Assembly (NCBI GenBank): GCA_004299235.1
Contig: SCQL01000002.1
Coordinates: 1 to 64,000 of the forward strand
Direction of reading: 5' to 3'
Origin: a bacterium
GTDB lineage: Bacteria; Chloroflexota; Dormibacteria; Dormibacterales; Dormibacteraceae
Length of the DNA: 64,000 bases
Below, in pieces: positions 473 through 54,170 of this stretch. The notes under the pieces were generated by a model. The model was not told the origin of the DNA, did not search any database, and was given only the letters and a program-made list of their open reading frames with translations. The position numbers and the translations under genes were made by a program. Numbering within the stretch: position 1 is the stretch's first letter; every line of letters begins with the position of its first letter.

Positions 473-3400
473 CTACGGGCGCTCCAGCTTCAGGGTCAGG
501 AGCTTGAATGGGGTGAGCTCCAGCTCGATCGTGCCGTCCCGCACCACGACCTCGCGGCGCTCTCTCTCCAGCAGGTCGCACAGCGTCGCCCGCGTGGCGG
601 GCAGGGTGGTGGCCAGGCGGGCCCGGCATCGACCTCCCCAAGCCTCGTAGAGCCGGACCACCACCGCGTCCGAATCCTCAGCGCGCTTGATCGTCTCGAC
701 CACGACCTGCGGTGTGTCGACCTCGATCAGCGAGCGTCGCTCGCCGGCACGCTTCTGGCTGCTCACGACCCGCAGCGGCGCGTTGAGGTCTTCGGCGGCC
801 GCGATGACGCCGGCCTGGCGAAAGTCGCCGGGGTGGGGCATGAGGGCATAGGTGAAGCGGTGCCGGCCCCTGTCCGCCGTCGGGTCGGGGTGCGTGGGCG
901 CTCGCAGCAGCGACAGCCGCATCACCGAGCCCAGGATGTCGTACCCGTACTTGCAGTCGTTGAGCAGCGCCACGCCGTAACCGGCTTCGCCGAGGTCCGC
1001 CCATCGCTGCGCGCACACCTCGAAACGCGCCGCGTCCCAGCTCGTGTTGGTGTGCGTCGGCCGTTCGAGGTGGCCAAACTGGATCTCGTAGGTCGCGTGC
1101 GGCGACCTCACCGCGACCGGGAACGCGACCTTCAAGAACTTGTGCTCCTCCTGCCAATCGACATCGGTCTCGAACCGAAGCACCCGCGATCCGGCATCGA
1201 GCACCATGCGCTGGCGAATGGTCGACGCACCGGACCTCCGCACCCACCTGACCGCGGCGCGCAGCGGACCGCCCTGCTCAACCTCCTCGGACGCCAGTGC
1301 CACCAGGTCGGCATGGTGCTGGCGGTAGCTGAGGTCGACATCCCATGCATCCCACCGGGCCGGGTGGTCGTCATGCAGCTGCAAGAGATTGCCTCGGGCT
1401 CGGTCCGCCAGCACCTCACGCCCGGCCCCCTTGTCCCAGATCGAGGTCAAGAGCCCGTTCTCGTCCCACCGCACCTGGAGCAGGTCGTTCTCCAGCTTCC
1501 GGCCGGACACGCCGACCTCTCCGCCGGCCGCGATGCCGGAGGCCTCGTGCACCGCCCACCCGCTCGCCGGCGCATCCACCATAACCGGCCCGCCGCCCGC
1601 CTCCACCACCTCACGCCGATGGTGCGAGTTGACGTTGAAGACGGCCATCCTTGGGCCAGTGCCGGCGAGCCGTGAGCGGGCGGCGGCGGAGATGCCGCCG
1701 GCGTTCTCGATCACCCGCTCGAGCTCGCTCTCGGCCTGCTCGTACACCCAGTCGATGCTCGACCCGGGGAGGATGTCGTGGAACTGGTTGAGCAGCAGCC
1801 GCTGCCACAGGTCCTGCAGCTCGCCCGCCGGGTATTTGCCGGCCGCGGCCACCGACCACATCTCCGCTTCGCGCAGCGCCTGCTCGGCCCGCCGGTTGAG
1901 CCGCTTGACGCGCGACTGCGTCGTGTAGGTTCCGCGATGGAGCTCGAAGTACAGCTCTCCGACCCACGTGGTCAGGTGTCGTGCTTCGGCCGCGGCCGAT
2001 TCGAAGAAGTCGCGCGCCCGCCCCAGCTCGACGCGCGGGGCGCCGTCGAGGTCGCGCAGCCGGTGCGCGGCCTCGAGCATGTCGGGCTCCGGCCCTCCAC
2101 CTCCGTCGCCCCAGCCGAACAGATACAGCGAGCGCGAGGACCGTTCCGCATCCTTGAAATTCGCCTCGCTGCGCACCACCTGCCCGGCCGTGAAGTCGCC
2201 GTTGTACGTGTCCGCCGGCGGGAAGTGCGTGAAGACGCGCGTCCCGTCGATCCCCTCCCACATAAAGGTGTGGTGCTCCGGCTTGTTCAACTCGTTCCAT
2301 GACAGCTTTTGAGTGAGGAAGCAGTCGCAGCCCGCTTCGGCGATGAGCTGCGGCAGCGAGCCCGGATAACCAAACACGTCCGGCAGCCAAAGCTCTTTGA
2401 CCTCATAGCCGAATTCCTTGAGGAAGAAACGCTTCCCGTGCAGCAGCTGGCGGACGAGCGACTCGCCCGAGGGGAGGTTGCAGTCGGCCTCGACCCACAT
2501 CGCGCCGACCGGCTCCCATTGGCCCGACGTGACCTTGGCGCGCATGCGGCGGTAGATGTCCGGGTAGGAGACCTTCATCCACGCGTACTGCGCGGGCTGC
2601 GAGCAGGCGAAGCGGTAATCCGGGTGCTCGTCCATCAGCGCGAGCGCGGTCGAGAAGCTGCGGGCGCACTTGCGGCGGGCCTCCCGCAGCGGCCACAGCC
2701 AGGCGGTGTCGATGTGCGCGTGGCCGATGGCGGTGATCGAATGTGGCGAGTCGCTCGGGCGCGAGAGCAATTCGGCGAGCTCACGCCCGGCGTCCGGCGT
2801 GCATCCGGCCTCCAGGCCGAGTTCGATGCGGTCCGCGAACCGATGCAGGGCCGCCATGATCTCCCTTCGACGCCGATCGCCCTCGGGCAGGGCGAGCGCC
2901 AGCTCGAGCAGGACTTTGAAATCGAGCGCGAGGCGGCGCATGCCCTCGTCCTGGATCATCAGCTCCGCCTGTCTGAGCGTGAAGGCCTTCTGGGCCGACG
3001 TGCGCAGGGCGATCATCGAAGGCGCCGGCTCCGGGCCGGACACCGTCGCCGTGGGGTTGGCGGCGGCCTCGAGATGGAAGTCGATCTCTGGGCCTTCGAC
3101 CGGCAGCCACCGGTGGTTCGGGTCGACGCCCCGCCACGGCCGGCCGTCCTTCCACGCCAGCGCCTCACACGTGAAGCCCGTGTCGCCGGTGAAACCCAGG
3201 TCGAACAGCGCTACCACTGACGCCCTCTTCCCTTGGGAAAAGAGGTCCCGTGAGGGGTCTTGGGCCTCGCGCCCGGGCCACCCGTCGGGCACCTGGCCGC
3301 GGACGCGAAACCAGGTCGTGCTCCACGGCGGGCCCCAGGCGTCGCCGACCCTGAAAGGCCGGTACTCGCCCCGGCGCGCCGCCTCAAAGCTGATGGGCTC

Positions 3401-3526
3401 GCCGCGCACGCAGAACGCCGTCAGCTCCAGCGGCGCGCTCCCGCGGTGGATCGCCCGCAGCAGCCGGCGCTCCAGGACTTGCCGCAGCCGGTCTGGATCG
3501 GAGGGCGCCACGCTGTCCGACATCAT
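473..3526 (-). CDS. Alpha-mannosidase, glycoside hydrolase family 38
   Basis: The 1017-residue protein should hydrolyse terminal alpha-D-mannosyl residues, typical of bacterial GH38 enzymes acting on imported mannosides or glycan fragments; no signal peptide is seen, so it is likely cytosolic. The catalytic domain shows the zinc-binding motif HIDTAWLW at residues 271-278 and the nucleophile region WVEADCN with Asp348. The N-terminal ~250 residues match the beta-rich region that precedes the GH38 core in this subgroup, and the C-terminal half is the usual beta-sandwich. Length (~1000) is normal. It starts 31 bases after the end of the oligoendopeptidase gene on the same strand, so the two probably share a transcript. 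Substrate specificity cannot be read from the sequence. Confidence 0.92.
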   Translation of the reverse strand: MMSDSVAPSDPDRLRQVLERRLLRAIHRGSAPLELTAFCVRGEPISFEAARRGEYRPFRVGDAWGPPWSTTWFRVRGQVPDGWPGREAQDPSRDLFSQGKRASVVALFDLGFTGDTGFTCEALAWKDGRPWRGVDPNHRWLPVEGPEIDFHLEAAANPTATVSGPEPAPSMIALRTSAQKAFTLRQAELMIQDEGMRRLALDFKVLLELALALPEGDRRRREIMAALHRFADRIELGLEAGCTPDAGRELAELLSRPSDSPHSITAIGHAHIDTAWLWPLREARRKCARSFSTALALMDEHPDYRFACSQPAQYAWMKVSYPDIYRRMRAKVTSGQWEPVGAMWVEADCNLPSGESLVRQLLHGKRFFLKEFGYEVKELWLPDVFGYPGSLPQLIAEAGCDCFLTQKLSWNELNKPEHHTFMWEGIDGTRVFTHFPPADTYNGDFTAGQVVRSEANFKDAERSSRSLYLFGWGDGGGGPEPDMLEAAHRLRDLDGAPRVELGRARDFFESAAAEARHLTTWVGELYFELHRGTYTTQSRVKRLNRRAEQALREAEMWSVAAAGKYPAGELQDLWQRLLLNQFHDILPGSSIDWVYEQAESELERVIENAGGISAAARSRLAGTGPRMAVFNVNSHHRREVVEAGGGPVMVDAPASGWAVHEASGIAAGGEVGVSGRKLENDLLQVRWDENGLLTSIWDKGAGREVLADRARGNLLQLHDDHPARWDAWDVDLSYRQHHADLVALASEEVEQGGPLRAAVRWVRRSGASTIRQRMVLDAGSRVLRFETDVDWQEEHKFLKVAFPVAVRSPHATYEIQFGHLERPTHTNTSWDAARFEVCAQRWADLGEAGYGVALLNDCKYGYDILGSVMRLSLLRAPTHPDPTADRGRHRFTYALMPHPGDFRQAGVIAAAEDLNAPLRVVSSQKRAGERRSLIEVDTPQVVVETIKRAEDSDAVVVRLYEAWGGRCRARLATTLPATRATLCDLLERERREVVVRDGTIELELTPFKLLTLKLERP

Positions 3527-3557
3527 GGGCTCCGGCTGGCGCTTTCGGCCGAAAGAC

Positions 3558-5384
3558 TCAGTCGTGCTGGGCGTCGACCAGCTCTTCGAGCCGCGCGACC
3601 ATCTCGGCCAGGGTCGCGAACGCGGCCTCGACCGGCTCGGACGAGGTCATGTCGACCCCGGCCAGCCTGAGGCCGTCGAGGGGATACATGGACCCGGCGC
3701 TCTTCAGGAACGCCAGGTACGACTCGACCGCGCGCGGATCGCCGGCCGCGACCCGGTCGACCAGGTGGTCCGCGCCCGCGATCCCGGTCGCGTACTGGTA
3801 GACATAGAAGTTGCTGTAGAGGTGGGTGTGGAACTGCGCCCACGTCGAGCCGATGCGCTCCCGGTCCTCGGCGCCGACCTCGACCTCGGACCCGTAGACC
3901 TCGGTCATGAGGTCCGCCATCAGCTCGTTCAGATAGCCGGCGGTGATCGCTCCCCCGCGCTCGACCCGCTCGTGCATCTCCAGCTCGAGGCGAGCCAGCG
4001 CCGGCATGATGAACAAGTAGCGATAGAAGTTGGCCATCGCCTCTTCGATCACGGCGACCTGGAAGGCGGGATCGGTCTGGGTGTCGAGCAGGTGGCGTCG
4101 CGTCAGCGCCTGGTGCATGTTCGAGGCCACCTCGGCCTGGAACAGCCCGTAGCCGGCATAGATGAAAGGCTGCGTCTTGCGTGCGTAGTACGAATGCATC
4201 GAGTGACCGAGCTCGTGCGCGAGGGTGCTCATCGAGTAGATGTCGTCGTTGTAGCTCATGAAGATGAAGGGGAAGGTGTCGGGCACCCCGGTCGAGAAGG
4301 CGCCCATCCGCTTGCCCCGGTTGGGGTAGACGTCCACCCATCGCTCCTCCAGGGCGCCCCGGCGCAGGACGCTCACGTACTCCTCTCCCAGCGGCCTGAC
4401 GCCCTCGGCGATCCACTCCACGGCCTGCTCGTAAGGCACGTGGAGAGTCGCCGTGCCCAGCTGCGCGCGAGTGTCGTAGGGCTTGAGCACGTCCAAGCCC
4501 AGCGCCCTTCTGCGCACCCTCCAGTAGCGATGCCACGTGCCCACGTGGTCGCGGAACGCGCGCAGGACGTGGTGGTAGACCTCGGTCGGGATGTGGCTGG
4601 GCTCGAGCGCCGCTTGCAGAGATGACGCGTAGCCGCGCGCGCGCGCGAAGAAGACGTCGCGCTTGATTCCGCCGGCGAGGCTCGCCGCCATCGCGTGCTG
4701 CATCGCGATGTGCGCGTCGGCGTAGCTCTCGAAAGCGGTGCGGCGGACCTCCCGGTCCGGGCTCGTGACCAGCGCCGCGATCGTCCCCTGGGCGACCTCC
4801 TGCCGCTCTCCTTTCGCTCCGACCGCGGGCGCGAATTGCAGATCGGTGTTGGCGAGCACGCCGTGGACCGAGAGCGCGGTGGCGAGCGGGTCCGACACCT
4901 GCGTCAGCACCTCCTCGACCTCGGCGCTGCGGATGCGGCGCTGCAGTTTCTCCAGGCGGTCGAAGTAGTGGCCGAGGTGCGCGAGCCGGCGCGAGTCCGC
5001 CACCCATTCGCGGAGCTTCGGCAGCCCGATCTGGATCATCTCCGGCAGCGCGAATGACGTCGTGGCGCCGAGCTGGGCCGCCGTCGAGCGGGCGCGGTCG
5101 GCGCGCGCGGCGGCGCCCTGGTCGCCGGTGTCGACCGAGTACGCCATCGTGCTGTACACCATCACCTTGCCCATCAACCGGTGGACGCGTTCCGACGCGT
5201 CGAACCAGTCGGCCAGGGCATCCGGTGAGTCGCCGAGGTGGCCTTTGAACTCGGCCAGGTCGGGCAGCCTCGCGAGGATCGTTTCGACCGCCGCCTCCCA
5301 GCCCGCCTCGTCCGGAAAAACGCTTTCGCCGTCCCAGGTGAAGCGCTGGTCCAGCTCCGCACGCCGCGGCAGGGAGTTGGTCAC
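3558..5384 (-). CDS. pepF: Oligoendopeptidase F-type metallopeptidase, family M3
   Basis: A 608-residue cytosolic zinc peptidase that degrades oligopeptides. The M3 signature HELGHSMH lies near residue 390 (HExxH zinc ligands), and the third-ligand helix follows (QAEVASNMHQAL). Length matches PepF (about 600). The frame is open to 5453, but GTG at 5384 gives the usual N-terminus (VTNSLPRR) and is preceded by a TAGTGT box 8 bases upstream, the leaderless arrangement common in this window; a longer start would overlap the divergent hydrolase. The alpha-mannosidase follows 31 bases downstream. Confidence 0.93.
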   Translation of the reverse strand: MTNSLPRRAELDQRFTWDGESVFPDEAGWEAAVETILARLPDLAEFKGHLGDSPDALADWFDASERVHRLMGKVMVYSTMAYSVDTGDQGAAARADRARSTAAQLGATTSFALPEMIQIGLPKLREWVADSRRLAHLGHYFDRLEKLQRRIRSAEVEEVLTQVSDPLATALSVHGVLANTDLQFAPAVGAKGERQEVAQGTIAALVTSPDREVRRTAFESYADAHIAMQHAMAASLAGGIKRDVFFARARGYASSLQAALEPSHIPTEVYHHVLRAFRDHVGTWHRYWRVRRRALGLDVLKPYDTRAQLGTATLHVPYEQAVEWIAEGVRPLGEEYVSVLRRGALEERWVDVYPNRGKRMGAFSTGVPDTFPFIFMSYNDDIYSMSTLAHELGHSMHSYYARKTQPFIYAGYGLFQAEVASNMHQALTRRHLLDTQTDPAFQVAVIEEAMANFYRYLFIMPALARLELEMHERVERGGAITAGYLNELMADLMTEVYGSEVEVGAEDRERIGSTWAQFHTHLYSNFYVYQYATGIAGADHLVDRVAAGDPRAVESYLAFLKSAGSMYPLDGLRLAGVDMTSSEPVEAAFATLAEMVARLEELVDAQHD

Positions 5385-48323: not shown

Positions 48324-48400
48324 GGTGGCTATAGCTCAGTAGGCAGAGCACCAGATTGTGGATCTGGGTGTCGCGGGTTCAAGTCCCGCTAGCCACCCCA
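48324..48400 (+). tRNA. tRNA-His (anticodon GTG)
   Basis: 77 bases including the extra G-1 and encoded CCA. Acceptor GTGGCTA pairs with TAGCCAC, G-1 pairs with discriminator C, the anticodon stem CCAGA/TCTGG holds the loop TTGTGGA with anticodon GTG at 48358-48360, and the T-arm is GCGGG-TTCAAGT-CCCGC. Accessory DNA follows directly. Confidence 0.97.
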
Positions 48401-48512: not shown

Positions 48513-49211
48513 TTGGCGCGGATTACCCAAGCTCGACTCGCAGAGCTCGCCGAGGACCAATGGGGTCTGCTGACGCGCCGGCAGGCTGAGCAGGCGGGGG
48601 TTTCGCAAGCGACACTCCAGCGCCTGGCTGCCGGCGGTGTCCTCGTGAGGGTGGCTCATGGCGTCTACCACCTCGCCGGCGCGCCCGAACCTGACCACAT
48701 CACTCTCAGGGCGGCGTGGCTGCAGCTTGCGCCCGAGGTGCCGGCCTGGAAGCGAGAGCCGGGCGAAGGCGTCGTATCGCACCGTTCAGCTGCATCGATG
48801 TTTGGCCTGGGGCATCTCCCCGCCGACCGACACGACTTCATCCTCCCGGAGCGCAGACAGACGAGGCGCCCCGACGTTCGATTTCATCTGGCGGTTCTCG
48901 AGCCCCGAGAGTGGGTCTCGCGTCTGGGGGTGCCGGTGACCCGGCCCTCACGCATCGCGATCGATCTGGTGGAGGATCGCGAGGATCCTGAATCGATTGC
49001 GACCGTCGTCGCTGACGCGATCAGGGGTGGTCATGAGCCGCCGGCTCTCTTCGCCGACGCGCTGAGATCGGTAGCCCACCGCCTCGGTCTCCGCCGAGGT
49101 GAGGGACTGGGAAGCCTGCGCTGGCTGCTCGACCTCATTGCAGCGAAGGAGGGACCCGAGTGGGTCGAGCAAGCCCACCATGCCCTGCTGCGTGCGGCCT
49201 CACGAGGTTGA
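48513..49211 (+). CDS. abiEi: AbiEi-type antitoxin/transcriptional regulator
   Basis: 232 residues. The N-terminal winged HTH typical of AbiEi is visible: LAELAEDQWGLLTRRQAEQA, then GVSQATLQRLAAGGVLVRVA and HGVYHLAG. A nuclease-like C-terminal domain follows (SHRSAASMFGLGHLPADRHD), and RIAIDLVEDREDPESIA. In type IV AbiE systems AbiEi represses the operon and neutralises AbiEii. The start codon is TTG. The next gene's TTG overlaps this stop by 4 bases. Confidence 0.88.
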   Translation: MARITQARLAELAEDQWGLLTRRQAEQAGVSQATLQRLAAGGVLVRVAHGVYHLAGAPEPDHITLRAAWLQLAPEVPAWKREPGEGVVSHRSAASMFGLGHLPADRHDFILPERRQTRRPDVRFHLAVLEPREWVSRLGVPVTRPSRIAIDLVEDREDPESIATVVADAIRGGHEPPALFADALRSVAHRLGLRRGEGLGSLRWLLDLIAAKEGPEWVEQAHHALLRAASRG

Positions 49212-50104
49212 GCCCGCGGTACCCGACCCCGGCTGCGTTTCGGCGAGCGTTGACCGATCGACTTCGAGCGCGGGCGGCGGCATCTCGCTGGAACCTGGCG
49301 CAGCTGCAGCGGCAGCTTGCATACGACCGTCTGTTGGAGCGGGTATACAGCCGCGACGATGGGTGGGTCTTGAAGGGGGCGACGGCGTTGCTGGCGCGTG
49401 AGATTGGCGTGCGGGCAACGATCGACGTCGACCTGTATCGATCTGCCGAACCCGACTCGGCGGAGGCGAACCTCCGGGCCGCTGCTCAGACGGACATCGG
49501 CGATTGGTTCGTCTTCGAGGTCGGACCCACCAGGCCGGCCGGCGATGCTGCCTCTGCCCGCCGTCTGCCAGTCAGTGCGCGCGTTGGAAATACCACTTGG
49601 GCGTCGTTTCACGTCGACATCGCTGGACCTCATCTGCGAATGACCGGGCGACCCGAACGAGTGCAGGCCCTGGCCCGGCTCGGCATGCCGGATGTTGAGC
49701 AGCACGGTTATCACGCGTACCCGTTGGTGGACCACATCGCGGACAAATTGGCTGCGATGTATGAGAGCCGTGGAGCGGTCCGAGCATCGTCGACGCGCTT
49801 TCGCGATCTGGTCGACCTGGTCGCCATCACCGTGTCGGCAACAGTCGCAGGGCGACCGCTCATTCTGGCCGTGCGGTCGGAAGCGGCGAGACGAGGACTC
49901 ACATTGCCCGACCGGCTGGTCGTTCCGGACCGTTCCACCTGGGAAGCCGGCTATGCCGCCGAGGCTCGGCGCTCTCTGCTCTCGGAGGCCACAACCCTCG
50001 ATGCTGCGCTCCAAGTCGTGGGAGCCCTGATCGATCCCGTCCTGGATGGATCGGTCAAGGGCGCGTGGGATCCGCGAACCAGGACCTGGAGGCGATCCCG
50101 GTGA
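49208..50104 (+). CDS. abiEii: AbiEii/AbiGii-type nucleotidyltransferase toxin
   Basis: 298 residues. The nucleotidyltransferase core motif is WVLKGATALLARE with TIDVDLYR (the paired Asp of the DxD site) at residues ~50-75, followed by WASFHVDIAG and YPLVDHIADKLAAMY (DxxxxK), as in AbiEii/MenA toxins that transfer nucleotides to tRNA. TTG 49208 overlaps abiEi and GTG 50101 of the next gene overlaps this stop. The catalytic residues look intact. Confidence 0.88.
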   Translation: MSPRYPTPAAFRRALTDRLRARAAASRWNLAQLQRQLAYDRLLERVYSRDDGWVLKGATALLAREIGVRATIDVDLYRSAEPDSAEANLRAAAQTDIGDWFVFEVGPTRPAGDAASARRLPVSARVGNTTWASFHVDIAGPHLRMTGRPERVQALARLGMPDVEQHGYHAYPLVDHIADKLAAMYESRGAVRASSTRFRDLVDLVAITVSATVAGRPLILAVRSEAARRGLTLPDRLVVPDRSTWEAGYAAEARRSLLSEATTLDAALQVVGALIDPVLDGSVKGAWDPRTRTWRRSR

Positions 50105-50424
50105 AGGTCAGCGAGCGGCGATATCGGGAGATGGTGGAAGCAGCCGCCGTCGACGCTTACAACGAGTCCGAGTTGATCACCGTGTGGTACACCGTGATCG
50201 AGGAAAAATTGGCAGTCCCCTTCGAAGCCTCCGTTCTCGGAGTTGCAGTCCGCGTCGACAAGGTGGAGCTGACCGATAACGAGCAGATCGTGGTCCGGTG
50301 CCGTCGCGGCCGGCGCCAACGGCTGGTTCCGATCCTCGATCTTCTGAGGCCGACGCCCCGTCCGGCTGGCTCCGATTGCATCGACGCTTTTTGCCGCTGG
50401 GTTAAATCTGGATCGTTGGGATGA
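50101..50424 (+). CDS. CcbP-like (calcium-binding-protein family) small protein
   Basis: 107 residues: RYREMVEAAAVDAYNESELI, EKLAVPFEASVLGVAVRVDK, VELTDNEQIVVRCRRGRRQR and CIDAFCRWV. This matches the pattern of the CcbP family (first described as a cyanobacterial calcium-binding protein) in which a PFEA core is followed by a short acidic segment. Calcium binding is family knowledge and not shown here. GTG 50101 and the 3' end are both overlapped (GTGA, ATGA) by neighbours, so it is in the AbiE transcript. Confidence 0.65.
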   Translation: MKVSERRYREMVEAAAVDAYNESELITVWYTVIEEKLAVPFEASVLGVAVRVDKVELTDNEQIVVRCRRGRRQRLVPILDLLRPTPRPAGSDCIDAFCRWVKSGSLG

Positions 50425-51647
50425 GGCGGCGGCCGGCACCGACGACGCACCAATGGGTGTTCAAAGCACGGTTCCGACGCGGTGCCTTCGGATGGCGATC
50501 GGCGCCGGCGGTGCAACGCGTCCGCGAGGCCGTCTCCGAGATAAGGAGCGTCGCCCGCAAAGATCCGATCCTCGCTGCGGAAGGAGCGATCGCATTCCTC
50601 GAGCGAGTATCGCCGGCGCTCGAGAGCGTCGACAGCTCCTCGGGGTCGATTGGCACCGCCGTCAACAATGCGATCGACAAGTTGGTCCCGATCATCGCGG
50701 CCGCCCCGGCCGATCCCAGGATCCGGTCCAAGTGGTTGGACCGCCTGTGGGAGTCGCACGAGGCGGACCAGATCCCCTACATCGAGCAGCTCGGCGAGTA
50801 TTGGGGCGACTTGTGCGGGTCAAAGGAGGTGGCCTCGGAATGGGCCGATCAGCTGATCGGTACCACCCGCCTCGCCCTGAGTCCGGATCGGACCGTGCGC
50901 GGATTCTTCCACGGCTCCACCGCCTGCCTCAGCGCGCTGTTCGCTGCGGGGAGATATGGCGACATCCTCGATCTGCTGAAAGACGAAACCTTCTGGCCGT
51001 ACAAGCGCTGGGCGGTCGAAGCGATGGCCGCGATGGGTGATGTTGAGAATGCGCTCGAGCTGGCCGACGCAAGCCGAGGGCCTTGGACCAACGACCACGA
51101 CGTAGACCAGATCTGCGAGTCCATTCTTCTCGCGCAGGGCCGGGTCGATGACGCCTACCGGGACTACGGGCTCCGCGCGCATCGGGCGACCACGTTCCTG
51201 GCCACCCTCGATGCCGTGTGCCGTGCCTATCCCGACAAGCCGCGTCACGAGGTCCTGGCCGACCTCGTCGCGAGCACGCCCGGGGAGGAGGGCAAGTGGT
51301 TCGCGGCCGCCAAGGACGCCGGGCTTTACGACGAGGCGCTCGCCCTTGCCACCCGATCACCGTGCGACCCGAAAACGCTGACCCGTGCCGCGCGAGACTT
51401 CGCCAAGAAGAACCCGGCCTTTGCGCTGGGCGCCGGCACGCTGGCGATGCACTGGCTGATCGAAGGCTACGGTTACGAGATCACCTCCGCTGATGTTTGG
51501 GCTGCCCACTCGCGCACCCTCGAAGCCGCCGGCGCCCTTGGTCGAGTCGACGAGGTTCGGGCCCAGATCCGGGCAATGGTGGCGGCGGAAGGTCCAGGCA
51601 CGGACGGTTTCGTCACCAAGACAATCGGACGGGAGCTGGGTCTGTGA
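50421..51647 (+). CDS. Helical-repeat protein of unknown function, AbiE-linked
   Basis: 408 residues, almost all alpha-helical with TPR-like spacing: RWAVEAMAAMGDVENALELA, DDAYRDYGLRAHRATTFLAT, KWFAAAKDAGLYDEALALA. The N-terminus is basic (MRRRPAPTTHQWVFKARFRR). No catalytic motif, signal peptide or membrane span is seen. I know this as a recurrent hypothetical protein but can give no function. ATG 50421 overlaps the previous stop, and the next gene overlaps its stop by 4 bases. Confidence 0.75.
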   Translation: MRRRPAPTTHQWVFKARFRRGAFGWRSAPAVQRVREAVSEIRSVARKDPILAAEGAIAFLERVSPALESVDSSSGSIGTAVNNAIDKLVPIIAAAPADPRIRSKWLDRLWESHEADQIPYIEQLGEYWGDLCGSKEVASEWADQLIGTTRLALSPDRTVRGFFHGSTACLSALFAAGRYGDILDLLKDETFWPYKRWAVEAMAAMGDVENALELADASRGPWTNDHDVDQICESILLAQGRVDDAYRDYGLRAHRATTFLATLDAVCRAYPDKPRHEVLADLVASTPGEEGKWFAAAKDAGLYDEALALATRSPCDPKTLTRAARDFAKKNPAFALGAGTLAMHWLIEGYGYEITSADVWAAHSRTLEAAGALGRVDEVRAQIRAMVAAEGPGTDGFVTKTIGRELGL

Positions 51648-51864
51648 TCGAGCGGGCCTACATCCACGTGGGCGGCCCCGCCGGCACCGGCAAGACCACC
51701 TTCGTCGAGGCGGTGCTGGAGGCGTGTGACGAGCCGATCCTCGCTGCGCGTTGCGTGCGCAACGATTCGCTGAGGACGTCGTGGGAGACCAATCCGCAGC
51801 GGCACCCCGAGCTCCGGCGGTATCGCGAAGCCGGCGCCAGCGGCGTACGGCGCGCGCCGCCTGA
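51644..51864 (+). pseudogene. P-loop NTPase gene, truncated after ~70 codons
   Basis: GTG 51644 starts VIERAYIHVGGPAGTGKTTF, a strand followed by a clear Walker A (GPAGTGKT), then EPILAARCVRNDSLR and HPELRRYREAGASG, consistent with a HypB/CobW-like G3E P-loop protein. After about residue 70 the sequence loses its fold and runs to a stop at 52045 through an inverted-repeat region. The Walker B and later domains are absent, so the gene seems truncated. It overlaps the helical-repeat gene by 4 bases. Confidence 0.65.
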
Positions 51865-51923
51865 CGGGGTGACGAGTCGGTTGTTATGGGAAAGCACCGC
51901 AACAGACAGAACGCGTCACCCCG
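51865..51923. repeat. 10-bp perfect inverted repeat at the truncation point
   Basis: CGGGGTGACG (51865-51874) and its reverse complement CGTCACCCCG (51914-51923) enclose 39 bases. They start just where the P-loop gene stops resembling its family, which suggests a small inserted element or a recombination scar. No T-run supports a terminator. Confidence 0.55.
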
Positions 51924-51966
51924 CTTTCGCGCGCTCCGCTTCGCTTCGAAGCCTGGCTTCTCCGGC

Positions 51967-53652
51967 TCAAGACGCGCCTCGGCGGGTGAGCAGGAATGAT
52001 CGCCCGAGTGTGAGCGATAGCACGCTGACCAGGATCCCCGCGTAGATCGGGGCGACGTGCCAGAAATCCGTGTACGCCAAGGCGAGATGGACGCCCAGCG
52101 CGGCGCCGAATCCGCTTGTTGCGGAGGCCGCCAGGCCCCACCACACCCAAGCCTGACCGCGTTGCCAGCCCCAAGCCGCCATGAGCAGGACCGCGACTCC
52201 AGCCGACATGAGTGCACCACCAAAGCCCGCACGGTCATGAGCAATAAAGGAAAGGAGCCGGTTATTCGCTTCGTTGAGCGCCTGCGCTGTGGTGCTCATA
52301 TAGGTCAGGTCTGTAGGTACGAACACAGAAGTCAGCCCCACATAGGAGATGGTCAGCCCACCGACTATCAACCCGAAGCCGGCGCCGACCATCAGCAGTT
52401 GGCCGACCAAGGCTCGATGCCATTCGCCGGTCGGTCCTTCGCTGATCGGGTCTGGGAGTTGAGGTCGCGGTCTCTTCCAGACAGCAATAACGAAGAGCGG
52501 AAAGAGCATTGCGGCCAGCGCGACGTGGATGGGCTCAACGTACCGGTACGCAACGAAGTAGAGAAGGGTTGGAAAGCCGACCAAGCCCGAGGCCAAAAGC
52601 GCGTCGCGGGCCCAGGCGAGCCCTCGCCGAATTCCGCACCACGACAGGCAGCCGTAGAGGAGGCCGATGGCGATCATCGTCCCCGCCAGCGTTATGCGGT
52701 CATGCTGCAGGAAATGGATCAGCCTGGGGTTGATGGCCGCAAGGCCGTGCGCATCAACCCCCAGAAACGTCGAGTCATAAGGCAGCAACACGGGCCCCAA
52801 CGACTCCAGTGCGGCTCCCACGCCTCCGAAAATCATTCCGAGTCCCAGAGCGAGCCCAGCGATCCAGGCTGTCGATCCGCGTTCAATGGGACGCGGTGCC
52901 GCGGTTCTGGCCAGAAGCTCTGTCGTGGCTCGAGAGAACCAGCCGGGTCCGGCCTCGATCAATGCTTTGGTCGTCGCCAGAACAGCATCCGCGCCTGAGG
53001 ACACCAGGTCGGCGACCTCGCCCGGCGACGCCTCAGACGTCGCCGCGATGACCGTGCGGCCGGGCGCGTGAGCGCGCTCAACATCCTGGGGTGTTGATTC
53101 ACGAAGCACCACCCCGATGCCGGCAGGAATCAGCGCCAACTGACTACCTGCAACGCCGGCGAGGAGGGGCACCGACGAAATCGCCGCTGCTTGGTCCAGC
53201 ACATCAAGATCAGGCGGGCCTGACACGTCGCACACGAGCATGGCTGCCTCGGTCGTGACTTGGCGGACGAGCTCAACGGCATCGGCCGCTCGGAGCCGCA
53301 AGGCTACCGGCACCATCGCCGACCTGAGGGCTGTGGCCAATTCCTGGAACGAAGCTGTGCTGACAGGACCAATTTCGACAAGCCCCGCGCCGAGCGCCGG
53401 GAATGCCGCCAGGGCGGCTGGTGCGACCGAGACTCCGATCGACGCTCCCATTCTTGCTGGACAGTTCGCACCAGCGACCGCCCACGCCGCTTCCTTAGGC
53501 GGGCTGGTTCGACCCACGCCCGCGACCAATCGTGGCCCTGCCGGAAGGTGTGCAAGGAACGCCAGCACCCGCATCGCCAGCCGCCTCGAGCCGTCCCAGC
53601 CGAAGAGGGCCCCCATCGGTTCGCGGAGCGGGTGATAAGTCCAGTCCGGCAC
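51967..53652 (-). CDS. Dihydroorotate-dehydrogenase-like domain fused to a multi-span membrane domain
   Basis: 561 residues. Residues 1-260 resemble class 2 dihydroorotate dehydrogenase: DWTYHPLREPMGALFGWDGS as in the membrane-associating N-terminus, then RMGASIGVSVAPAALAAFPA followed by LGAGLVEIGPVSTASFQELA, a GLAAG-like FMN site that has lost the usual catalytic Lys and Asn/Ser motifs. From ~262 on there are about eight hydrophobic segments (TAWIAGLALGLGMIFGGVGA, and later LLMVGAGFGLIVGGLTISYV). The fusion suggests a pseudoenzyme or sensor; catalysis is doubtful. GTG 53652 with AGGATGA upstream. It lies between the AbiE operon and the tRNA-like repeat. Confidence 0.65.
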   Translation of the reverse strand: MPDWTYHPLREPMGALFGWDGSRRLAMRVLAFLAHLPAGPRLVAGVGRTSPPKEAAWAVAGANCPARMGASIGVSVAPAALAAFPALGAGLVEIGPVSTASFQELATALRSAMVPVALRLRAADAVELVRQVTTEAAMLVCDVSGPPDLDVLDQAAAISSVPLLAGVAGSQLALIPAGIGVVLRESTPQDVERAHAPGRTVIAATSEASPGEVADLVSSGADAVLATTKALIEAGPGWFSRATTELLARTAAPRPIERGSTAWIAGLALGLGMIFGGVGAALESLGPVLLPYDSTFLGVDAHGLAAINPRLIHFLQHDRITLAGTMIAIGLLYGCLSWCGIRRGLAWARDALLASGLVGFPTLLYFVAYRYVEPIHVALAAMLFPLFVIAVWKRPRPQLPDPISEGPTGEWHRALVGQLLMVGAGFGLIVGGLTISYVGLTSVFVPTDLTYMSTTAQALNEANNRLLSFIAHDRAGFGGALMSAGVAVLLMAAWGWQRGQAWVWWGLAASATSGFGAALGVHLALAYTDFWHVAPIYAGILVSVLSLTLGRSFLLTRRGAS

Positions 53653-53730
53653 GGGGTCATCCTGGCATGGCGAGGCTCAGGACACATCCCCTCTGTGAAG
53701 TCGAATCTGGTGTCCTGACGAGCCTCATGG

Positions 53731-53768
53731 CGCGGGTTCAAGCCCCGCTGGGCATCTTGCGCCACCCA
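53731..53768 (+). repeat. Partial tRNA 3'-end-like sequence (tRNA-His T-arm match)
   Basis: CGCGGGTTCAAGCCCCGCT at 53731-53749 matches the tRNA-His T-arm region (48372-48390) with one mismatch, and GCCACCCA at 53761-53768 resembles its acceptor end, with an 11-base insertion between. No complete tRNA fold precedes it. It may mark the distal end of a tRNA-integrated island, or be an eroded tRNA. Confidence 0.4.
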
Positions 53769-53906
53769 CTTTGTATAGACTAGATGGGTGGACGATCGGA
53801 CCTCGTCTGGCGGATGGCTGGTAGACATGCCTCGCGTGCACGGATTGGAGAGCGAACGTCACTGTCGTCGATCCACATCCAGGCGAATCATCCGGAGGGT
53901 CAGCAG

Positions 53907-54170
53907 ATGAAGACCAAGGCAGCCAGGGAACCGTTCTACGGCCCGTTCGACGAATTGAGTGACGAGGAATTCGAGCGGGAGGTTCTCGACTCTCTTGATC
54001 AAGCGACGACCAAGATCTCGATTCGGGTTCCAAACGATCTACTCGACCGCACGAAACAGGCCGCACAGCAACGCGGAGTCCCATACCAGTCGCTGATGAA
54101 GGCCTTGATTGACCGAGGCGTCCGCCGGCTTGAGCGCGCAGGCTCTGGCGCCCACCGGCCCAAGGACTGA
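53907..54170 (+). CDS. CopG/BrnA-like ribbon-helix-helix protein
   Basis: 87 residues: a DELSDEEFEREVLDSLD acidic helix, then KISIRVPNDLLDRTKQAAQQ (the ribbon strand and first helix of RHH proteins) and VPYQSLMKALIDRGVRRLER. Such proteins are usually antitoxins of BrnTA-type modules. No toxin gene precedes it, so it seems an orphan. ATG 53907 has a strong GGAGGG ribosome site; ATG 53784 just after a promoter-like TATAGA is an alternative start giving a longer N-terminus. Confidence 0.7.
   Translation: MKTKAAREPFYGPFDELSDEEFEREVLDSLDQATTKISIRVPNDLLDRTKQAAQQRGVPYQSLMKALIDRGVRRLERAGSGAHRPKD

Follow-up and report, generated by a model that had tools for sequence, protein, structure and literature searches.

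The window analysed here, 64,000 nucleotides (nt) of contig SCQL01000002.1 (assembly GCA_004299235.1) from a bacterium of the Dormibacteraceae, contains an operon of five open reading frames (ORFs) at 48513–52045, arranged in the order abiEi-abiEii-g3-g4-g5. Four-base overlaps occur at all four junctions (TTGA, GTGA, ATGA, and GTGA), and each gene has support beyond its length, namely PADLOC or Pfam matches for abiEi, abiEii, and g3 and homologues for g4 and g5. These data bear out the gene arrangement proposed in an earlier sequence-only reading, whose interpretation of the operon as an enlarged AbiE module is partly supported. Promoter and terminator scans found none. Joined in the operon are an AbiE toxin-antitoxin (TA) pair and g4, which belongs to a widespread mobile family and is predicted to form an α-solenoid.

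By their sequences, abiEi and abiEii make up an ordinary type IV TA system of the canonical two-gene form and are probably functional. The PADLOC profile match of AbiEi spans residues 6–217, with the N-terminal winged-helix domain (PF13338) at residues 8–52 and the C-terminal domain PF09407 below its cut-off (18.3 versus 22.2 bits). AbiEii contains all of motifs I–IV (I/II, KGATALLAREIGVRATIDVD; III, DKLAAMYESR; IV, RDLVD), as defined in the AbiEii of Streptococcus agalactiae (PMC3985639); the second residue of motif I is A, a substitution on record in homologues. The published system likewise comprises two genes with a 4-nt overlap, encoding a winged helix-turn-helix antitoxin and a nucleotidyltransferase, but it is bicistronic, whereas the window operon continues through three further genes (PMC3985639). 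Two sets of 7-nt inverted repeats before abiEi (48430/48495 and 48448/48493) are too short to exceed chance. Other AbiE pairs in the same bacterial family (L087 and L090) have no g3 or g4 behind them.

The third gene, g3, exceeds the cut-off of the CcbP family PF11535 (28.5 versus 21.5 bits), supporting the predicted CcbP-like identity at family level only; no solved relative matched convincingly. Distant g3 relatives are present on Rhodococcus and Streptomycetaceae plasmids, one annotated case adjoining a helicase-associated-domain gene, and none was seen near AbiE or g4 in the loci examined. The gene is a local addition at the window locus.

The fifth gene, g5, resembles its full-length homologues (232–288 residues) only to residue ~68–70, at base ~51850. 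Alignment with the L005 homologue reveals 69% identity over residues 3–68 and nothing beyond; the frame remains open to 52045 through sequence unrelated to the homologues. The decay suspected from the sequence is thus confined to g5. No second genomic copy of the break sequence (51830–52060), sought as a sign of an insertion sequence, was found. The remnant retains a Walker A motif (GPAGTGKT), and a profile of three intact g5 sequences weakly matches the MobB structures 4oyh and 4nkr (E = 0.002, residues 5–67); the model of whole g5 is poor (predicted local distance difference test [pLDDT], 61). With MobB-type P-loop nucleoside triphosphatases (NTPases), g5 shares the Walker A motif and an RYxxAGA-like stretch, but it possesses a long extra C-terminal part, and no molybdenum-cofactor genes were noticed adjoining it. 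Intact g5 follows g4 with a GTGA overlap in L027 and L036 and after a gap in L005, broken g5 is present in four loci (the window, L015, G202, and G266), and the viral contigs hold none. It seems to accompany a single g4 branch, as an optional partner.

A second operon, at locus L015, combines AbiEi (3332–4135), AbiEii (4132–4968), g4 (from 4955), and a g5 (from 6166) from which a large internal part is deleted. In contrast to the window protein, the L015 AbiEi belongs to the PF09407 type (8.6e-53) and represents an unrelated AbiE subtype; the g4 tree joins L015 and L027 as sisters (support 1.0) and places the window elsewhere. The combination of another AbiE subtype with a g4 from another branch indicates that AbiE and g4 joined at least twice. 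A tblastn search with the window AbiEi and AbiEii missed the L015 pair, which Pfam searches of the adjoining genes revealed; plain similarity search therefore understates AbiE linkage. A further AbiE pair is close to g4 at L152, but on the opposite strand. No other AbiE pair adjoining g4 was found among the loci examined, in a census that covers adjoining genes and that distant AbiE subtypes at non-adjacent positions may escape.

These loci bear on the proposal of an enlarged AbiE defence system made up of all five genes, with the CcbP-like, solenoid, and P-loop proteins as dedicated AbiE components. Its attraction lies in four successive 4-base overlaps and in the order AbiEi-AbiEii-g4-g5, repeated without g3 in L015. 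Yet g3 was seen in none of the other AbiE or g4 loci, AbiE is missing from the surroundings of most g4 genes, neither g3 nor g4 accompanies the AbiE pairs of relatives, and g5 is broken in both AbiE-linked cases. We regard the proposal as highly improbable; as a fixed unit, the five-gene system is largely refuted by the gene-neighbourhood data, which leave an ordinary AbiE pair with a promiscuous mobile gene for a predicted solenoid, a decayed g5, and a locally added g3. The sequence-only reading had added that the AbiE linkage would be incidental if the helical-repeat and P-loop genes paired mostly without AbiE. Taken literally, this is what the three intact g4-g5 pairs found (L005, L027, and L036) display, with no recognisable AbiE adjoining them, and nearly all g4 genes likewise lie apart from AbiE; "incidental" is nevertheless too strong a word, given the L015 operon and the recurrence of g4 directly behind other TA or defence genes.

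At least 128 g4 relatives were detected by tblastn in GTDB genomes, and the best 80 were fetched as loci. These 80 share 47–65% identity with g4, and their record titles name Acidobacteria, Deltaproteobacteria, Myxococcales, Gammaproteobacteria, Nitrospirae, Planctomycetes, Gemmatimonadetes, and others as hosts. The gene is present on 18 plasmid records, on 35 IMG/VR contigs, and in 7 of 400 genomes of the window's phylum, and is absent from INPHARED phage records. In locus L103 (1659–6200), on the Paraburkholderia plasmid pBN3, g4 lies directly behind the tnpA-tnpC genes of a Tn3-family unit, overlapping tnpC by four bases; two further plasmids of the same Paraburkholderia species and Burkholderia vietnamiensis G4 also carry g4.

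The AlphaFold2 model of g4 (pLDDT 95.6) is composed of 22 helices and zero strands, arranged as tandem antiparallel helix pairs, confirming the helical-repeat protein expected from the sequence; 34 invariant columns are common to 73 g4 sequences, and the invariant surface includes W12, W25, and PGEEGKWF (287–294). The top PDB fold matches are tetratricopeptide repeat (TPR) proteins, but these are weak (best TM-score, ~0.3), and a BFVD search returned no close relative, its TPR-like matches also being weak. There is no PDB sequence match, and no Pfam family reaches its cut-off on g4. The DUF6880 family (PF21810) scores 12.7 bits against a cut-off of 27.3 (E = 0.065, residues 41–100). Beyond this weak, sub-threshold similarity, DUF6880 genes sometimes adjoin g4, but g4 itself stays below the family cut-off and has no matched SWIM domain, in contrast to DUF6880/SWIM-associated proteins. 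We are confident in the prediction that g4 is an all-helical TPR-like α-solenoid.

An all-against-all BLAST of the 80 loci revealed no constant neighbour of g4. HigB-HigA precedes it in L052, with the same antitoxin in L053 and L060, and the genes directly upstream elsewhere encode ParE (L104), HipA (L051), RhuM/PDC-S05 (L004), an AbiEii-type nucleotidyltransferase (L050), AAA/SMC proteins (L069 and L070), SNF2-PLD (L028), and HNH (L025). On the viral contigs, an HExxH/M78-type gene lies upstream of g4 in 31 of the 35, the loci read in detail having the order XRE-M78-g4 or M78-g4. In L134 (3628–8412), for example, an XRE gene, an M78/ImmA-like peptidase gene, g4, a 72-residue ORF, DUF2924, and a serine recombinase gene follow one another. 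Cassettes of this type recur across the viral contigs L116–L150; in L125 and L145–L147, a ~750-residue gene without Pfam match replaces the peptidase gene. Two further groups of adjoining genes were observed. A gene of 400–520 residues without Pfam match lies directly upstream of related g4 genes in L007, L009, and L021, which form one clade on the g4 tree, and genes starting MRRRR or MRRGH overlap the end of g4 by four bases in L016 (7203–8819), L030, and L004, apparently as another partner family.

The AbiE block lies directly behind tRNA-His, and it is a small DNA insertion at the 3' end of this tRNA gene. The order paaA-tRNA-His is kept in 28 of the 29 relatives read, with mostly different DNA behind the tRNA. 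In relative L159, a BrnT-BrnA-like pair comes immediately after tRNA-His, matching an unoccupied site; joining the two window flanks gives matches to L159 of 79.5% (132 nt) and 78% (262 nt). Repeats of the tRNA 3' end are present on both sides (Table 1), and the 561-residue gene on the complementary strand is absent from 40 relatives. The AbiE block and this second cargo gene have therefore come to separate tRNA-His from a TA pair that was already there. No recognisable integrase was found inside the inserted block. Two side observations concern the same site. Relative to L159, the BrnT-BrnA-like pair of the window (53755–54170) has lost most of brnT and retains an intact CopG/BrnA-like antitoxin gene. 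Within this bacterial family, the 3' end of tRNA-His serves as an integration hotspot; the genes at this site in neighbouring genomes differ and include BrnT-like and XRE-like starts.

Table 1. Features of the AbiE-g4 operon and its insertion site in the window
Feature	Coordinates	Strand	Start	Description	Match
abiEi	48513–49211	+	TTG	Antitoxin and putative autorepressor of type IV TA	PADLOC AbiEi 3.5e-71; PF13338 2.6e-12
abiEii	49208–50104	+	TTG	Nucleotidyltransferase toxin	PADLOC AbiEii 2.5e-86; PF08843 1.1e-13
g3	50101–50424	+	GTG	CcbP-like small protein	PF11535 2.3e-6
g4	50421–51647	+	ATG	Predicted 408-residue TPR-like α-solenoid, widespread mobile family	
g5 5' remnant	51644–51853	+	GTG	~70 of ~290 residues, putative MobB-like P-loop NTPase	
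tRNA-His (GTG)	48325–48400	+		Block inserted at its 3' end	ARAGORN
Left att-like repeat	48369–48395	+		27 nt of the tRNA-His 3' end; direct repeat D1	
Right att-like repeat	53728–53754	+		Imperfect copy of the tRNA-His 3' end	23/27 identical to left repeat
561-residue gene	51967–53652	-		Probable membrane protein, second cargo; weak dihydroorotate-dehydrogenase-like N-terminal part	NCBIfam 0.0019
BrnA/CopG-like gene	53784–54170			Just right of the right repeat	

The reading we put forward, at about even confidence, is that the AbiE pair has acquired a promiscuous, mobile third component, g4, which is likely a protein-binding adaptor, with g5 lost and g3 added locally. The canonical AbiEi-AbiEii pair is joined in one overlapping operon to a gene whose family turns up repeatedly directly behind toxin or defence genes of unrelated types. 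AbiEi would repress the operon, and AbiEii would act as a growth-arresting nucleotidyltransferase. Made beside AbiEii through coupled translation, g4 may bind the toxin, the antitoxin, or the toxin's trigger and, as an adaptor or chaperone-like third component, set when the toxin acts; the putative MobB-like NTPase g5 would be an optional partner of one g4 branch, lost in the window. This role is proposed because of the modelled fold of g4, its conservation, its tight spacing, and its recurrent partners.

The AbiE identity and motifs, the strong conservation of g4 and its confident solenoid model, the variety of its upstream genes, and the second AbiE join speak for the adaptor interpretation, as does the composition of the neighbourhoods. 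Pfam families found on at least two genes adjoining g4 are TA-rich (HTH_3, 6; HipA_C, 3; PIN, 3; AbiEii, 2; Fic, 2; Gp49, 2), and none of these is among the 25 commonest families of 130 genes at least three positions away, which are mostly ordinary, although this comparison sets lists of commonest families side by side and is not a per-gene statistic. Several further observations weigh against the adaptor interpretation. The distant genes of g4 loci also hold many PADLOC defence families, and a defence-island setting alone could yield part of the neighbour pattern. Among codirectional upstream genes, only 32 of 54 lie within 100 bp of g4. At most loci, no TA gene can be recognised directly upstream, and housekeeping genes precede g4 in some, namely guaA (L061 and L066), isochorismatase (L038), and APS kinase (L059); g4 may therefore be mere mobile cargo.

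Plain cargo is a serious rival. According to this explanation, to which we give a substantial chance that stays short of even, g4, with or without g5, is an independent mobile gene with its own function that lands where insertions are tolerated, often in TA or defence islands, so that its co-transcription with AbiE is positional only. The very varied neighbours agree with it, as do the placement of g4 in a Tn3 unit, on plasmids, and on recombinase-bearing viral contigs and the intact g4-g5 pairs without AbiE. It accounts less readily for the repeated short overlaps and tight spacing of g4 with toxin or antitoxin genes, for the independent second AbiE-g4 join, and for the nearly constant M78-type partner in viral contigs.

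The HigBA, AbiE, and XRE-M78 cases already hold a regular antitoxin or regulator gene, which would leave g4 redundant were it a promiscuous antitoxin or immunity factor that directly neutralises adjoining toxins, as PanA (DUF4065) does for type II toxins. The PanA fold is not known to be related to the predicted g4 fold. We judge such a role improbable, even though the partner use of g4 resembles the hyperpromiscuity reported for the Panacea domain (PMC8832971).

A broader form of the adaptor interpretation is also conceivable, though we hold it only tentatively and think it rather unlikely. Here, g4 would be the common third component of many unrelated TA or stress modules (type II HigBA and ParE, type IV AbiE, HipA, and XRE-M78 metalloprotease pairs). 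A single family of solenoid adaptors, carried between phyla on plasmids, a Tn3-type unit, prophage-like elements, and islands, would then couple different toxins to a shared trigger. If g4 were a general toxin partner, one uncharacterised family would link toxin systems now held as separate types, and its naturally varied partners supply pairs already at hand for tests of a common trigger or chaperone function. Were g4 only cargo, it would still mark a conserved defence-island gene family that has been transferred very widely and has no Pfam entry.

Among known TA systems, three come close to g4 and its partners. The Panacea (PanA) domain is a hyperpromiscuous antitoxin domain paired with many unrelated toxins, and the partners of g4 are similarly varied, but g4 accompanies complete TA pairs and does not replace the antitoxin (PMC8832971). 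Toxin-antitoxin-chaperone (TAC) modules carry a third gene behind a TA pair, as do the g4 loci that follow HigB-HigA; g4, in contrast, is predicted to be an all-helical α-solenoid, is not the SecB-like chaperone that characterises TAC modules, and has many more kinds of partner (PMC5105189). A three-component system, with RelE or PIN toxins as the further component, was put forward by Makarova et al. (2009) for pairs of XRE and COG2856 (M78/ImmA) genes (PMC2701414). The HExxH-type gene upstream of most viral g4 genes recalls these pairs, but g4 has no toxin-like domain. The TAC modules and the XRE-COG2856 prediction are precedents for a third component, g4 being by test a member of neither; if the shared-third-component interpretation were true, the third component predicted in XRE-COG2856 systems would have a candidate in g4.

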